Source: Chloroflexota bacterium (GTDB lineage: Bacteria > Chloroflexota > Anaerolineae > VGOG01). Taken from it: DNA of 42,884 nt. A program made the translations under genes and the position numbers. Location: positions 1 to 42,884 of the forward strand of contig VGOG01000008.1 in NCBI GenBank assembly GCA_016875995.1, read 5' to 3'. The notes beneath the pieces are model-generated. The model was not told where the DNA came from, did no database searches, and worked only from the letters and a program-made list of their open reading frames with translations. This document shows, one piece after another, positions 814-40,837 of the stretch (the stretch's first letter is position 1; each line of letters starts with the position of its first letter).

Positions 814-2328
814 ATGTCTAATCAACTCGAGTTCCTGGCCCTCGATCTGGGCGCGGAGAGTGGTCGCGCGGTGCTGGGTCAGTTCGATGGGGAGAGGCTC
901 AGGCTTTCGGAAGTACATCGGTTCCCCAATGGCCCGGTGCGCTTGCCCGATGGCCTGCACTGGGACGTGCTGCGTCTGTGGACGGAGATAAAACGTGGCC
1001 TGACCCTGGCTGTCCAGGAGCACAGAGCCGACCTGGCGGGCGTTGGCCTGGACACGTGGGGGGTGGATTTCGGCCTGCTCGACCGGGACGGCGCGCTGAT
1101 CTCGAATCCCTACCACTATCGCGACAGCCGCACCGATGGCATGCTCGAAGAGGCCTTCCGCCGCGTGCCCCGTGAGGAGATCTTCGAGCAAACCGGCATT
1201 CAGTTCATGCAGCTCAATAGCCTCTATCAGTTGCTGGCGATGGTCGTCGGCCGCTCGCCAGCCCTCGACATCGCCGAGACCTTCCTGACCATGCCCGACC
1301 TGTTCAATTACTGGCTCAGCGGGCGCAAGGTGTGCGAGTTCAGCATTGCCACCACCACCCAGTGTTACGACCCGCGCCTTCCCCCCCCTGATGAGGGGGG
1401 GGGCAGGGGGGGGTGGGCCATCCCGCTGCTCGAAAAGATGGGCATCCCCACCCACATCTTCCCCGAGATCGTGCCACCCGGGACCGTCCTGGGCGAGCTG
1501 TTGCCGACGGTGGCTGAGGAGGTCGGGGTTAGCGGCCTGCCGGTCATCGCCCCCGCCTGCCACGACACTGGCTGCGCAGTGGCAGCCGTCCCCGCCGAAG
1601 GATCGGACTTCGCCTACATCAGCTCCGGCACGTGGTCGTTGATGGGCGCTGAGCTGTCGGAGCCTATCATCAACGAGCAAAGCCTGGCCTTCGACCTTAC
1701 CAACGAGGGGGGCGTGGGTGGCACCTTCCGCTTCTTGAAGAACATTACCGGGCTGTGGCTGGTACAGGAGTGCCGGCGCACGTGGGCGCGCCAGGGCGAG
1801 GAATTCTCGTACGACGATTTGACCCAGATGGCGGCTCAGGCCACCCCTTTGCAATCTATCGTTGACCCCGACTATCCTGAGTTTCTCAAGCCCGGCGACA
1901 TGCCGGCGCGCATCCGTGCCTTTTGCCATAAGACGGATCAGCCCGTGCCGCAGAGCAAGGGAGAGGTGATTCGCTGCGCCCTGGAGAGCCTGGCCCTCAA
2001 GTACCGCTGGGTATTGGAGCGGCTGGAGGAGATATTGGGCCGTCGCCTGGAACCGATCCACATCGTGGGGGGCGGGACGCAGAACTGGCTGCTCAACCAG
2101 CTCGCCGCCGACGCCACTGGTCGGCGGGTGGTGACCGGCCCTGTCGAGGCCACGGCGGCGGGCAACGTCATCACCCAGATGATGGCCCTGGGGCACATCG
2201 CCTCGCTGGCGGAGGGGCGGCGGATCGTGCGCCATTCCTTCGACGTTGTCACCTACGAGCCTGCTGGTGGGGCCGAGTGGGACGGGGCCTATGGCCGCTT
2301 CCTGGCCATGATGGAGCAGCTTGGCTAG
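814..2328 (+). CDS. rhaB: Rhamnulokinase (FGGY family)
   Basis: N-term FLALDLGAESGRAVLG..., GLHWDVLRLW, TGIQFMQLNSLYQL, GGGTQNWLLNQLAADATGRRVVTGPVEATAAGN; contains a GC-palindrome-encoded insertion. Confidence 0.92.
   Translation: MSNQLEFLALDLGAESGRAVLGQFDGERLRLSEVHRFPNGPVRLPDGLHWDVLRLWTEIKRGLTLAVQEHRADLAGVGLDTWGVDFGLLDRDGALISNPYHYRDSRTDGMLEEAFRRVPREEIFEQTGIQFMQLNSLYQLLAMVVGRSPALDIAETFLTMPDLFNYWLSGRKVCEFSIATTTQCYDPRLPPPDEGGGRGGWAIPLLEKMGIPTHIFPEIVPPGTVLGELLPTVAEEVGVSGLPVIAPACHDTGCAVAAVPAEGSDFAYISSGTWSLMGAELSEPIINEQSLAFDLTNEGGVGGTFRFLKNITGLWLVQECRRTWARQGEEFSYDDLTQMAAQATPLQSIVDPDYPEFLKPGDMPARIRAFCHKTDQPVPQSKGEVIRCALESLALKYRWVLERLEEILGRRLEPIHIVGGGTQNWLLNQLAADATGRRVVTGPVEATAAGNVITQMMALGHIASLAEGRRIVRHSFDVVTYEPAGGAEWDGAYGRFLAMMEQLG
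1378..1420. repeat. GC-rich palindromic element inserted in frame in rhaB
   Basis: C8-T-gatg-A-G8/9 then caGGGGGGGG; encodes LPPPDEGGGRGG inside an otherwise conserved kinase region. Confidence 0.7.
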
Positions 2329-10569: not shown

Positions 10570-11624
10570 AAGAACCTCGTACGATTCGTGCAGCGCGGCT
10601 GCACGGCATCCGCGACCTGAGGCTGGAGAACCTGCCACGACCCACACCTGGCCCCGGCGAGGTGCTCTTGAAAGTGGCCTCAGTGGGTATTTGTGGCTCA
10701 GACGTCCACTACTACCTGGAAGGCCGCATCGGCAACCAGGTGGTGACCGCACCCATCATCATGGGACACGAGTTCTCGGCCTGGGTCGCTGATTTTGGCG
10801 AGGGGGTGGAAGGTCTGGAAATTGGGCAACTGGTTGCCGTCGAGCCGGCCATCTCCTGCGGGGAGTGCGAATCCTGCCGGCACGGGCATCCCAACCTGTG
10901 CCCGAGCGTTCGCTTTTGCAGTACACCGCCGGTGGATGGCGTCTTTGCCGAGTACACCGTCATGCCTGCCAGGAACTGCTTTCCCTTGCCACAAGGACTC
11001 AGCCCTGCGGAGGGCGCGATGCTGGAACCGTTGGGCGTCGCCATCCACGCCGTTGACCTGGCCCACCTGAAACCAGGGTATACCGTCGCCGTGCTGGGGG
11101 CCGGCCCCATCGGGCTGTTGATCGCAGCGGTGGTCAGGGCCTCTGGTGCCAGCGCGATCTACGTGACCGAACCACTGGCCTACCGGCGGCAATTCGCCCT
11201 GGACTACGTGGCCGATGCCGCGTTGAACCCTGATGATATCGTCGTTGTGGCCGAGATCATGCGGCTGACCGGCGGTCGCGGGGTGGACGTGGCTTTCGAG
11301 GCCGCTGGCGCACCGGAAACCCCGCAGCAAGCCGCTGCTTTGGCGCGGCCTGGGGGCAAGGTGATCGTGGCTGGCATTCCCGCCGACGACACCATGACCA
11401 TGAACGCCTCCACCGTTCGCCACAAGGGTCTGACCATCAAGCTGGTGCGGCGCATGAAACACACCTACCCCCGCGCCATCCGCCTGGTGCAGACGGGCAT
11501 GGTGGACGTCAAATCCCTGGTCACGCACACATTTCCCCTGGAACGCATCGCCGAGGCGTTGGAGATGGTCGCTGCTTACGACGACGGGGTGTTGCGAGCG
11601 ATGATCCAGATTTCCAACGCATAA
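10566..11624 (+). CDS. Zinc-dependent medium-chain dehydrogenase (sorbitol/iditol dehydrogenase-like)
   Basis: VGICGSDVHYYLEGRIG, GHEFSAWV, structural zinc lobe CGECESCRHGHPNLC, GAGPIGLL; ATGA overlap with upstream stop. Confidence 0.9.
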   Translation: MKEPRTIRAARLHGIRDLRLENLPRPTPGPGEVLLKVASVGICGSDVHYYLEGRIGNQVVTAPIIMGHEFSAWVADFGEGVEGLEIGQLVAVEPAISCGECESCRHGHPNLCPSVRFCSTPPVDGVFAEYTVMPARNCFPLPQGLSPAEGAMLEPLGVAIHAVDLAHLKPGYTVAVLGAGPIGLLIAAVVRASGASAIYVTEPLAYRRQFALDYVADAALNPDDIVVVAEIMRLTGGRGVDVAFEAAGAPETPQQAAALARPGGKVIVAGIPADDTMTMNASTVRHKGLTIKLVRRMKHTYPRAIRLVQTGMVDVKSLVTHTFPLERIAEALEMVAAYDDGVLRAMIQISNA

Positions 11625-11657
11625 GAAACCAGGTTTTTCCGAAAAACCTGGTTTCTT
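11623..11657. repeat. 17-bp perfect inverted repeat overlapping the MDR stop codon
   Basis: AAGAAACCAGGTTTTTC-C-GAAAAACCTGGTTTCTT. Confidence 0.9.
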
Positions 11658-11695
11658 GAAAGAGGAGGGGACCAATCAACCAGCGTATTGCTAGC

Positions 11696-13156
11696 TTGGA
11701 AACGAAACTCAACGATTTTGATCCGGTTGTCCGTGCCCAAGCCCTGGCAGAACTGGTCGCTTTGGCTCAGCGAGGCGCTGTTAGCCCTCCCTTCATCCCC
11801 CCCAACATTGGGGGGGAAAGAGGGGGGGCGGACGTGGCCAACATGCACTGTCACACCTTCTTCTCTTTCAACGCCTACGGTCACTCGCCCACCTCGCTGG
11901 CCTGGTTGGCCAAATGGCGCGGCTTCAAGCTGATGGGCATCGTGGACTTCGACGTGCTGGATGGCGTGGATGAGTTCCTCGACGCCTGCGAACTGGTCGG
12001 GGTGCGCGGCAGTGCAGGGATAGAAACCCGGCTGTTTCTCCCCGAGTTTGCCACCCGCGAGATCAACTCGCCGGGCGAGCCGGGCGTTTTGTACCACATG
12101 GGCATTGGGTTTACCACCAGCCGGGTGCCCGAAACGGTGGCCAACATCCTGGCGGATCTCCGCCAGCGGGCTGCGCGGCGCAACCGGGTTGTGGTAGAGC
12201 GCGTCAACGCTTACCTTGATCCGGTCGCGATTGACTACGAACGAGACGTATTGCCTCTCACACCAGCGGGGACCGCCACCGAACGCCACATCGTCGTAGC
12301 TTACATACGAGCCGCGGAGCGCATCGTCCCCAACGTGGTTGAATTCTGGGCCGACAAACTGAACGTCGAGCCTGGTCGGGTAGCGACGCTCATGGACGAC
12401 GCTCCCCAGCTTCAGGATCTGGTTCGTGCCAAATTGATGAAACGCGGCGGCATAGGGTACGTTCAGCCCGGTCCCGACACGTTCCCCACAGTGGACGAAT
12501 TTCACAAACTGATTGTAGCGTGCGGTGCGCTACCTTGCGCTGCCTGGTTAGATGGCACCTCTGCTGGCGAGCAGGCCATTGAAGAGTTGCTAGCGCTTTT
12601 GATCAGCAAGGGCGTGGTTGCCCTCAACATCGTCCCCGACCGCAACTGGAACATCGCCGACCCTGAGATGCGTCGCCTCAAGGTGCAAAACCTGTACCAC
12701 GTCGTCCGGCTGGCGCAGGAATTGGCCCTGCCGCTGAACGTCGGCACCGAGATGAACAGCTTCGGACAGAAGCTGGTGGACGATTTTGATGCTCCAGAAC
12801 TGGCCCCCGTGCGCCAGGCGTTTCTGGACGGCGCGCATTTCATTTACGGGCACACCGTCCTCCAGCGCGCGCTGGGGTTGGGCTATCACAGCGAGTGGGC
12901 GCAGACGCATTTGCCCTCGCGGCGTGAGCGCAACGATTTCTACACCAAGGTGGGATACCAGGTATCGCCGGACAGGGCCAGCATGGCCCGGCTAAAGCAA
13001 CTTGCCCTGAGCAGTGACCCCAGCTTGTCGAAGGGCCCAGCAAAGATTCTTTCGGCCTTACCCGCTTCACCATCGTCGAGCGCAAGCCGCAGATCATTCG
13101 CCAGGTCATCGAAGACAACGACTACCCGTCGCACATCGGGGGGGCGCTGGAGCTGA
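11696..13156 (+). CDS. PHP-domain protein (putative metal-dependent phosphoesterase); authentic C-terminus unclear after ~13005
   Basis: NMHCHTFFSFNAYGHSPTSLAWLAKWRGFKLMGIVDFDVLDG typical PHP start; tail ALPASPSSSASRRSFARSSKTTTTRRTSGGRWS is the wrong frame of a downstream DUF89 remnant. Confidence 0.75.
   Translation: METKLNDFDPVVRAQALAELVALAQRGAVSPPFIPPNIGGERGGADVANMHCHTFFSFNAYGHSPTSLAWLAKWRGFKLMGIVDFDVLDGVDEFLDACELVGVRGSAGIETRLFLPEFATREINSPGEPGVLYHMGIGFTTSRVPETVANILADLRQRAARRNRVVVERVNAYLDPVAIDYERDVLPLTPAGTATERHIVVAYIRAAERIVPNVVEFWADKLNVEPGRVATLMDDAPQLQDLVRAKLMKRGGIGYVQPGPDTFPTVDEFHKLIVACGALPCAAWLDGTSAGEQAIEELLALLISKGVVALNIVPDRNWNIADPEMRRLKVQNLYHVVRLAQELALPLNVGTEMNSFGQKLVDDFDAPELAPVRQAFLDGAHFIYGHTVLQRALGLGYHSEWAQTHLPSRRERNDFYTKVGYQVSPDRASMARLKQLALSSDPSLSKGPAKILSALPASPSSSASRRSFARSSKTTTTRRTSGGRWS
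11786..11829. repeat. GC-rich palindromic element inserted in frame in PHP gene
   Basis: CCCTCCCTTCATCCCCCCCAACATTGGGGGGGAAAGAGGGGGGG; encodes SPPFIPPNIGGERGG. Confidence 0.7.
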
Positions 13157-13686: not shown

Positions 13687-13754
13687 TCACCTCCAAGTTC
13701 GTTGGATGGCCCATAAAAACCACATCTTCGTCATTTTGTCAAGTCCGAATGGCC

Positions 13755-15990
13755 TTAGCCTATATTTCGCACATTTCAAACCGAATAGAGAGCGAAGTTT
13801 GTCCTGTCACAGGGCATGAATGCCTCATCTGGGGCAGGTAGAGTGAAAGTTCGGCCTCGACGAGGCCGCTCCTGGTAGTATCAAGGGTGAATCAGGCTTT
13901 CCTCTTGCTCCTGGGCGCACCTCACCCTCCCCGATGGTCCGGGCCTATCCGACAACCTGCTGTTCTCTTGGCGGTGGCAAGGCTAGAGGCTGGATATCCC
14001 CAGCAGGGAGCAGCGGGTGGGGCCAGCGAGGGAGTCGGAGCTCCGCCAGGACGTGAGCCAAGATCGTCAAGAGGGCGACCTGTTCTTCATCCACCGGGAC
14101 AAGCCGGCGCAAGTGGCTTCCATCCCAGCAGAAGGTCTCCACGACGTCCAGGCTTTGGAGCTTTTCGATGATGCGTCGGGTCGTCATCTGCAACCCACCC
14201 TGGCGAACCTGGCGTTCCAGCAGGCTGTAGGCCAGCAAGGCCAGCATGTTGATGAGTAGCATGGCCTCGATGCGCTCATCCTTATGCAGGTAGATGGGCG
14301 AGACCTTCAGGTCCTTCTTGGAGACCTTGATCCGTTTCTCTACCCCGTCTTTCTGGCGATAGAGAGCCAACATCCGCTGGGGTGAGAGGGACCAGTCGTT
14401 GGTAACCAGCAAGTAACGGCCATCATGCTGCATGGCTTGCCAGAGCGCGTAGCGGTCTACCCACCAACGAAGACGAACCTGGCCCTCCTCATCGATGTAG
14501 GCCTGAGCTTGCATGAACTTGCCAGCGGGGGACTGTTTCAGTTGGGTATCGGCCCGTCTCTGCACAGACTTCACCGTTCGATAGTACGGCTGCCCAATCT
14601 TGGCCTGCACCTTCCGTAGGGCTTGTCGTAACTCCCTCAACTGGGCCGCTCGTGTCCGGCGCAGGGAAGTTCGCATCGGCCCGCTGAGCACTACCAGCCC
14701 CCGGTGAGTGACCTGGCGACCTTCATGCTCGAAGACCACCTGGCAAGGCATTCCCCAGTAGCCATTTGGCCCACGCTCTTCGGTCAAGGGGTGGGCGTAG
14801 AACTGCTTTTCAGGAACTGACACCAACAACTCGCGGTGACTCTTCTTCTGGGGTTGAAGCCCAGCCAGGTAGCGCAAGCCGTGGTCATCGTAAGTCAGCG
14901 CCAGTTCGTCGTTCACATTGGCTCGGTCACCGATGATGATCACCTCTTCCACCGGCCAGCCGTGCCGTTTCAAGAGGCGACACAGCCGCTCCATGTTCTC
15001 CTGGACGGTGGCCAAGTCGGCCGTTCGCCCCGACCACAGTTCATAGTCCGCTGGGATGTTGCCATCGGCGGCCACGTTCAGACCGGCCTTGAACTTGCGT
15101 TTGTTCATCGGCGTGTTGTGGGCAAAGCCGAAGTCGGCGTGTTGGCTGTCGGCGTAGGTCCCATGCACGATGAAAGCCGTCAGGTCGTAGAAGATGAGGT
15201 TGAGGTCTATCTCCGCCTGAACGAAGGTGCGATGGACAACATCTTGCCAAATCTCTCGACGGTGCTGGCTGATGGCGTCCAACGTTCGCTCCAGCCGGTC
15301 GTCGTTGAACTTGGCTGCGGGCACGCCCAAGGTGTAGACCAGCACCGTTTGGGCCAGCCAGTCAGCCACTTGATAGAGGGGAAGAGGCATCGTGAGCCGG
15401 TTGAGGACCAAAACCATAGCCACCGTGCCGTGGTCTACCTCGGCCTTCGTGGGACAGTGACGATTGATGATCTCCCGCACCCGCAGCACTTCCAGCAGGG
15501 CGTACAACACTGGCAGGGCACCCAGATGCCGCCGTAACTGGGAGTGGGTCACCAGATCCACCAGTTGGGCGAAAGTCAACGCCCCCGTCAACGCCAGTCG
15601 GGCCAAGTGCGCCGTCCATACGGCACGACGATGAGCTTGCCGCAAGGCACAATACCGCCGCCAAGCCCACTTGCGCCAACGGTGTCTGGGCTGCCAGGGG
15701 AACAGTGGCCCGTTTCGTGGGTCGTGCGTGACAACCCCTGCCAACGCGGGTAAGCCGATTACTGGCCCGGCACCCACGACAGCCTGTTCCGGCAACGCCA
15801 AGAACACCAGGCAGGCCATGGCCCAAATGAGCCAGACCAGGATTTGCGTTCGTCGAGATTTCGTGGCAAAATTCATTGGGAATCGCTCCGGCTAACTATG
15901 GTTTTCGCACCCTATACTTTGCCACAAAAGGGGCGATTCCGCCAGTCCAGCTCTCTATTCAATTCTCAAGGTGCGAAATGTAGGCTTAGC
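13755..15990 (-). mobile_element. Insertion sequence (IS4 superfamily, possibly IS1634-like), about 2.2 kb
   Basis: Imperfect ~38-40 bp TIRs: left TTAGCCTATATTTCGCACATTTCAAACCGAATAGAGAG (13755-13792), right reverse complement GCTAAGCCTACATTTCGCACCTTGAGAATTGAATAGAGAG (15951-15990), flanking a transposase ORF. Confidence 0.8.
13945..15876 (-). CDS. IS transposase (IS1634/IS4-like DDE), with long N-terminal extension
   Basis: GALPVLYALLEVLRVREIINRHCPTKAEVDHGTVAMVLVLNRL...IFYDLTAFI...IIGDRANVNDELAL...KDGVEKRIKVSKKDLKVSPIYLHKDERIEAMLLINMLALL. Confidence 0.85.
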   Translation of the reverse strand: MNFATKSRRTQILVWLIWAMACLVFLALPEQAVVGAGPVIGLPALAGVVTHDPRNGPLFPWQPRHRWRKWAWRRYCALRQAHRRAVWTAHLARLALTGALTFAQLVDLVTHSQLRRHLGALPVLYALLEVLRVREIINRHCPTKAEVDHGTVAMVLVLNRLTMPLPLYQVADWLAQTVLVYTLGVPAAKFNDDRLERTLDAISQHRREIWQDVVHRTFVQAEIDLNLIFYDLTAFIVHGTYADSQHADFGFAHNTPMNKRKFKAGLNVAADGNIPADYELWSGRTADLATVQENMERLCRLLKRHGWPVEEVIIIGDRANVNDELALTYDDHGLRYLAGLQPQKKSHRELLVSVPEKQFYAHPLTEERGPNGYWGMPCQVVFEHEGRQVTHRGLVVLSGPMRTSLRRTRAAQLRELRQALRKVQAKIGQPYYRTVKSVQRRADTQLKQSPAGKFMQAQAYIDEEGQVRLRWWVDRYALWQAMQHDGRYLLVTNDWSLSPQRMLALYRQKDGVEKRIKVSKKDLKVSPIYLHKDERIEAMLLINMLALLAYSLLERQVRQGGLQMTTRRIIEKLQSLDVVETFCWDGSHLRRLVPVDEEQVALLTILAHVLAELRLPRWPHPLLPAGDIQPLALPPPREQQVVG

Positions 15991-39097: not shown

Positions 39098-40837
39098 ATG
39101 ATGGAAGATGTCTTGCAACGCTACAAGCGTGGCGAAGGACCTCTCCCCAGGACAATGCTGGCCTGGCCGCTCTACGGCGCGGGGTTCGAGAACCTGGGAC
39201 GCGACGGGCAACCCATCGAGGTGCCCATGCCCCCATACGGCCCGGATGAGCTGCTGATCCGCCACGACGCCTGCGGCCTGTGCTTCTCCGACGTCAAGGT
39301 CATCCAGGCGGGCCAGAAACACCCTCGTATCCACCGCGACATGCGGGCCAACCCGGTAGTGCTCGGCCACGAGGTGACCCTCACCGTCGTCGGGGTGGGC
39401 GAGAACCTGCGCGATCAGTACCGAGTCGGCGACCGCTTCATCGTCCAGGCCGACATCTACGTAGGCGGTGTCGGCTACGCCTACGGCTACGAGATCCAGG
39501 GCGGGCTTTCCCAGTATAGCGTGATTGACCAGCGGGTGCTGAACTCGGACCACGGCAATCACCTCATCCCTATACAAGCCGGCATCGGCTACGCCGAGAG
39601 CGCCCTCACCGAGCCGTGGACCTGCGTCACCGCTGCTTACCGGCTAAAATACCGCACTGAGCTGAAACCAGGTGGCACAACCTGGATTATCGGGGCCGGG
39701 GGTGGGGGCTACACCATCAGTGCCGGTTTCGACGAGTCCTCACATCCCGCTCGACTGCTGTTGACCGACGTACCGACCGAATTCGCCGACTGGCTGAGGA
39801 CACGGGCCGAGGCGTTGGGCGTGGAGGTCATCGAAGTGGACGACGTCGCTGCCCCGCCCCCTCTCCTCTCCCCTCGCAGGGGAGGGGCCGGGGGAGGGGT
39901 GGACGACATCGTCCTGCTAGGCGCCGATCCCGACCTGATCGAGGCCGTCAGCCCGCGCCTGGCCTCCTTTGGCGTCCTGGCCATCGTCGCCGATACACCC
40001 CTCCATCGCAAAGTGAACGTTGACGTGGGGCGGGTGCACTACAACCGTTGGCTCTACGTTGGTGGCCCCGGCCCCGACATCGCCCGCGTCTACCGCGACG
40101 AGCTGGTTCGCACAGAGCTTAAGCCGGGTGGGCGGGCCTGGTTCGTCGGGGCGGGCGGGCCGATGGGCCAGATGCACGTCCAGCGGGCCGTCGAAGCCCC
40201 CGACGGCCCCAAAACGATCTTTTGCACCGCGTGGGGTGACCGTCGTTTGCGCATCGTGGAGTCTATCTACCGAGCTGACACCGAGGCCAAGGCCATCGCT
40301 TTCATCTGCGTCAGCCGCGAGAACGAAGAAGTGTATCGCCAGACATTGGAAGAGGTTGGAGCATCGGGCTTCGACGACATCATCGTGATGGCACCGGATG
40401 CTGACGCTATCGCTGAGGCCGCGGATTATCTTGCCCCCGGAGGCATCATGAACATCTTTGCAGGTGTGGCACGCGGCACGATGGCCAGGCTTGACCTGAG
40501 CGACGTTTATCTGAGAGATGTGCGTTTCATCGGGCACTCAGGCCTGACCACCGAGGACATGCGCCTGACGCTATCTCAGGTTGAGTCGGGCAACTTATCA
40601 CCCAACCGCTTAGTCGCGGCCATCGGCTCGCTCAACGCCGCTCGGGATGGCTTGCGGGCAGTCAAGGACGCGGTTTTCCCAGGCAAAATCGTCATCTATC
40701 CTCACATCAAAGACCTGCCCCTCACCCCCCTGCCCGACCTGAAACACAAATTGCCGACTGTTTACGCCAAACTGAAGGATGGACGGGAGTGGACTAGGGA
40801 AGCGGAAGAGGAGTTATTGAGGTTGACGTTGCCGTGA
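39098..40837 (+). CDS. SorE-like (sorbose-1-phosphate reductase-like) MDR dehydrogenase with duplicated Rossmann region
   Basis: CGLCFSDVKVIQAGQKHPRI, PVVLGHEV, GDRFIVQADIY; two copies of RTELKPGGxxWxxGAGG; C-term GFDDIIVMAPD...APGGIMNIFAGVA...DLPLTPL. Confidence 0.8.
   Translation: MMEDVLQRYKRGEGPLPRTMLAWPLYGAGFENLGRDGQPIEVPMPPYGPDELLIRHDACGLCFSDVKVIQAGQKHPRIHRDMRANPVVLGHEVTLTVVGVGENLRDQYRVGDRFIVQADIYVGGVGYAYGYEIQGGLSQYSVIDQRVLNSDHGNHLIPIQAGIGYAESALTEPWTCVTAAYRLKYRTELKPGGTTWIIGAGGGGYTISAGFDESSHPARLLLTDVPTEFADWLRTRAEALGVEVIEVDDVAAPPPLLSPRRGGAGGGVDDIVLLGADPDLIEAVSPRLASFGVLAIVADTPLHRKVNVDVGRVHYNRWLYVGGPGPDIARVYRDELVRTELKPGGRAWFVGAGGPMGQMHVQRAVEAPDGPKTIFCTAWGDRRLRIVESIYRADTEAKAIAFICVSRENEEVYRQTLEEVGASGFDDIIVMAPDADAIAEAADYLAPGGIMNIFAGVARGTMARLDLSDVYLRDVRFIGHSGLTTEDMRLTLSQVESGNLSPNRLVAAIGSLNAARDGLRAVKDAVFPGKIVIYPHIKDLPLTPLPDLKHKLPTVYAKLKDGREWTREAEEELLRLTLP
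39855..39900. repeat. GC-rich palindromic element inserted in frame in SorE-like gene
   Basis: CCCCCTCTCCTCTCCCCTCGCAGGGGAGGGGCCGGGGGAGGGG; encodes PPPLLSPRRGGAGGG. Confidence 0.7.

Follow-up and report, generated by a model that had tools for sequence, protein, structure and literature searches.

The window, by which we mean the whole stretch of 42,884 nucleotides that was analysed, is one entire contig of a 414-contig, 4.29-Mb Chloroflexota MAG (GC content about 60%), and three of its genes contain a short hairpin made of a C-tract followed by a G-tract (Table 1). Across the first copy, the translation of RhaB reads CYDPR-LPPPDEGGGRG-GWAIPLL. We aligned rhaB with 19 orthologs from the class: the segment is absent from all 19, each of which shows the identical net gap of 9 amino acids, and it is absent as well from the solved structure 4c23 (FucK / fuculose kinase). 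This bears out the proposal of the first-pass annotation that the segment is an in-frame insertion which relatives lack. In an AlphaFold2 model of RhaB (mean pLDDT 90), residues 191-200 average 56 and residues 192-196 fall below 50; the model places copy 1 in this low-confidence loop, ahead of helix 203-208.

The second and third hairpins, which had been taken for elements similar to the first, are both real, and each is a net insertion of 10 amino acids when compared to the closest orthologs. The gene carrying copy 2 has no match in Pfam or NCBIfam. The predicted RNA fold of this copy has an energy of -41.7 kcal/mol (z=-6.1); that of copy 3 reaches -38.7 kcal/mol, but with a z of just -1.6, and the loop hosting copy 3 varies in length among more distant relatives. 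Two further claims of the first-pass annotation did not stand. The three copies do not share a frame: the right arm opens with a G that occupies codon position 3 in copy 1, 1 in copy 2 and 2 in copy 3. Nor is there anything to be learnt from their shared orientation, since the C-rich arm leads on either strand of any C..G palindrome. Directly upstream of the gene of copy 2, one can notice a different hairpin, of which a near-identical match was found elsewhere in the genome.

Table 1. Genes, hairpin copies and neighbouring features in the window
Feature	Position	Strand	Remarks
rhaB (rhamnulokinase)	814..2328	+	TIGR02627, E=6.5e-144; 19 orthologs, 51-79% identity by tblastn; carries copy 1
Copy 1, CCTT-C8-TGATGA-G9-CA-G8	1377..1413	+	net 27-nt in-frame insertion; C8-TGATGA-G9-CA-G8 spans 1381-1413
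Different hairpin, AAGAAACCAGGTTTTT..AAAAACCTGGTTTCTT	11624-11658		
PHP-like gene	11696..13156	+	start codon uncertain; relatives 50-77% identity; carries copy 2
Copy 2, CCCTCCCTTCAT-C7-AACATT-G7-AAAGA-G7-C	11785..11829	+	net 30-nt in-frame insertion
Insertion sequence	13754-15989		40-bp inverted ends at 13754-13793 and 15950-15989
DUF4277/DDE transposase of the insertion sequence	13945-15876	-	
Alcohol-dehydrogenase-like gene	39098..40837	+	PF08240; carries copy 3
Copy 3, CT-rich variant CCCCGCCCCCTCTCCTCTCCCCTCGCAGGGGAGGGGCCGGGGGAGGGG	39852..39899	+	net 30-nt in-frame insertion

These palindromes are members of a dispersed multi-copy family. Short hairpin repeats of the C-then-G type number far more than a hundred in the host genome (G000) and a relative of the same family (G002); the majority of them lie within protein genes, and there the reading frame is nearly always preserved. 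The genome-wide search for C..G palindromes confirmed the repeated family suspected at first: C6-N2-7-G6 has 303 matches in the host, against 9 for the reversed-order control (these matches overlap, so that the number of elements is below 303), while 78 instances of the exact core CCCCCCAANNTTGGGGGG were counted in the host and 36 in G002, against 0 for the control in both. In the window itself, C7N4-6G7 is found twice, versus 0 in 100 dinucleotide shuffles. The consensus consists of an outer C-tract, a spacer of 2-6 nt, C5-8, a loop which is often AAnnTT, G5-8, a spacer and an outer G-tract. The family is about 36-46 nt long (35-45 nt for the in-gene copies found with the architecture pattern), its aligned copies end with the C-tract and the G-tract, and, taken from end to end, the element forms an imperfect inverted repeat, with terminal inverted repeats as in a MITE.

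In order to place the copies relative to coding frames, we scored codon usage in six frames on both flanks of every copy in 1.55 Mb of G000; the gene context is that given by a heuristic codon-usage classifier, not by a gene caller, for 36% of one 414-contig MAG. In this sample, the majority of the elements lie in frame within genes. The same coding frame is found on both flanks for 44 of the 61 full-architecture copies (72%), against 51% of random positions, which upholds the in-frame residence proposed by the first-pass annotation, and for 34 of the 49 copies with both outer tracts (69%, against the same 51%). When at least one outer tract is required, 56 of 90 copies keep the frame, while 5 have flanks on the same strand but in another frame; three of these five come from two loci on contig C9, where the left-hand ORF stops at most 26 nt from the element. 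In G002, 21 of 35 core copies are in frame, against 46% for the null. All three codon frames are used by the in-gene copies (10, 16 and 18 copies, p=0.31), and no orientation bias is evident among the copies of G000 when judged by their asymmetric spacers. As many as 29 of the 61 full-architecture copies are open in all six frames and 52 in at least five; this scarcity of stops is partly due to base composition. Selection against disruption does not by itself account for the slight excess of copies in coding sequence over random positions. A preference for G/C runs as targets appears weak (p=0.01-0.035) and may come from alignment bias, and we claim none.

The carriers include genes for core enzymes: atpD (two copies), leuB, polA, alaS, proS, purH, hisD, hisA and hypF, all of which exceed the NCBIfam cut-offs despite the insert. 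One insertion lies near the nucleotide-binding region of AtpD. For proS, there is one match above the cut-off in the genome, and the hits of lower score probably come from other class-II synthetases. At 18 sites in 16 genes, the element is absent from the best orthologs, the net gain being 21-48 nt and mostly 27-33 nt. Conversely, we considered ten G002 sites with an ortholog in G000: several of them (e.g. on C44, C12, C21, C7 and C32) are filled, decayed or expanded, and others are empty. This means that insertion took place both before and after the split of the two lineages. In-frame decay can be followed at one site, where G002 has PPQSWGGKRGG and G000 has PPQSWEGKREG.

We consider it very probable that the hairpins belong to a dispersed repeat, probably a parasitic one, inserted genome-wide without avoiding coding sequence. 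Such a repeat would insert across the genome, coding sequence included, and its copies would be translated as Pro/Gly-rich linkers; selection would purge the insertions which break the frame or the fold, and the surviving in-gene copies would be those which keep the frame and fall in tolerant loops. Spreading may rely on an enzyme acting in trans or on hairpin-mediated template switching. We identified no mobilising gene or candidate transposase for the element in the genome, which has two IS110 genes. No clean case of target-site duplication and no fixed insertion length were found; a few nucleotides of target seem to be lost in the clean cases, and the relatives are too diverged. Hence we call the element mobile only from its dispersal and its empty sites. 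A bolder version, in which a hairpin mobile element of a presumably free-living Chloroflexota family seeks out coding or transcribed DNA, endures because almost any of its frames can be translated and time and again adds new loops to essential enzymes, is conceivable but rather doubtful.

Other origins must be weighed against a repeat that inserts without regard to genes. The hairpins might be REP-type elements moved by RAYT (Y1) transposases encoded in this genome, as it has two Y1_Tnp genes (on C213 and C1) and as the GTAG/CGTC REPs, which are palindromes of 20-40 bp and whose GTAG type goes together with RAYT genes, are also in some cases found inside genes (PMC3733652). However, the palindromes at both Y1 loci are different ones (AGGTGCCAGGCACTT; AACCGCCTGAAGGCTCCAC) and the C/G-tract element is absent around either gene, so that we rejected the link with RAYT; the present elements also differ from REPs by lacking the GTAG/CGTC tetranucleotide tag and by not being predominantly intergenic. 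We therefore regard this origin as unlikely. That the tracts serve as slippage switches for phase variation, or as adaptive linkers of the proteins carrying them, is improbable: the G8-G9 tracts of rhaB do have slippage-prone lengths, but in atpD and leuB most tracts have a length of 5-6, the carriers have no function in common, and many of the sites are not shared by relatives. We found no evidence that homopolymer length tunes the frame.

It could also be imagined that the insert is lost from the transcript by intron-like splicing, or passed over by ribosome bypassing as it occurs at mitochondrial byp elements; the strong hairpin and the insertions in core enzymes, including the one in AtpD, would agree with it. 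But a skipped insert needs neither to keep the frame nor to be open, and both properties are kept (56 copies have the same frame on both flanks, against 5 with a different one), which makes skipping very improbable. Finally, a GC content of about 60%, long homopolymers and a MAG assembly would be the usual setting for hypervariable Pro/Gly loops or for homopolymer assembly errors. We give hardly any credit to this explanation, as neither accounts for 303 matches against 9 in the reversed control, for a conserved core recurring 78 times, for a frame which stays intact through the tracts, or for the same family in a second genome.

The family is patchy among the 249 genomes of the class: G002 has 127 matches to C6N2-7G6 and most genomes have a few, while some unrelated families reach tens to about 200 matches, but with other cores. 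In a GTDB-based collection from which the host's own genome was possibly excluded, the Chloroflexota MAG CSMAG_2462 alone had an exact match to a 27-base pattern of the family. In two genomes from other families of the class (G160 and G189), the hairpins share the CCCCCC-loop-GGGGGG core but differ in its centre (TGCTAG or GTTGAC, for instance), frequently stand two side by side and are nearly all intergenic, 1 of 23 being in the same coding frame on both flanks in these small samples. The opposite, G-first arrangement is in excess in six genomes (G100, G205, G063, G045, G046 and G078, with up to 536 matches to G6..C6), which suggests unrelated palindrome families. In G002, an element lies no more than a few hundred bases from the end of five contigs (C72, C98, C96, C91 and C80), where the assembly may have broken at the hairpins.

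In-frame insertion of palindromes is best known from Rickettsia, which is obligate intracellular, and there drift could explain the tolerance. Here a genome outside Rickettsia and of unremarkable size (4.3 Mb) shows it at a larger scale: it hits ATP synthase, DNA polymerase I, aminoacyl-tRNA synthetases and enzymes of amino-acid biosynthesis, and it would leave core enzymes with an extra proline/glycine-rich loop missing in relatives. The likeness to Rickettsia palindromic elements (RPEs) drawn by the first-pass annotation holds for behaviour and fails for membership. Both are palindromic, dispersed and in frame within conserved protein genes, where they are apparently tolerated; but RPEs are 105-146 bp long, specific to Rickettsia and known in frame in 19 reading frames (PMC2229807), whereas the present elements are C/G-tract hairpins of 36-46 nt, adding mostly about 8-13 amino acids, in a Chloroflexota MAG. 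By analogy, then, the C/G elements behave like RPEs and differ from them in sequence, length and host. Inverted repeats inside protein genes, with perfect repeats of up to 284 bp, are also described in the mitochondria of Nematomorpha, which are those of animals, and the part of that report used here describes no dispersed family with a common core (PMC6649704). No prior description of such elements in Chloroflexota was found in the open-access literature. Together with the sister genome, in which many sites are empty, this provides a natural map of where core proteins tolerate insertions, and it allows the idea that selfish DNA contributes segments to proteins to be put to the test.

Other repeats are read through as well. 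A second dispersed repeat of about 24 nt, CCCTTCGAC-N-GGCTCAGG-N-CAGGC, has 14 copies in the G000 sample. It sits within the loop of the C/G palindrome on contigs C2, C14, C21 and C27, and it adds 8 in-frame codons relative to G002 on C21 and, as a variant, on C12. On C33 (L064), several copies lie within a stretch of repeated sequence, and one of them seems to be a 23-nt insertion beside a Walker A region, and this insertion may break the frame. The reading frame also runs on through heptamer-like repeats in G000 (C29, that is L060, and C10) and in G002 (L113 and L117); an RnfC-like protein, for example, contains SNIQYPIPNTQ, and a glutamate-synthase-like protein contains LEVGSWKLEVGGW.
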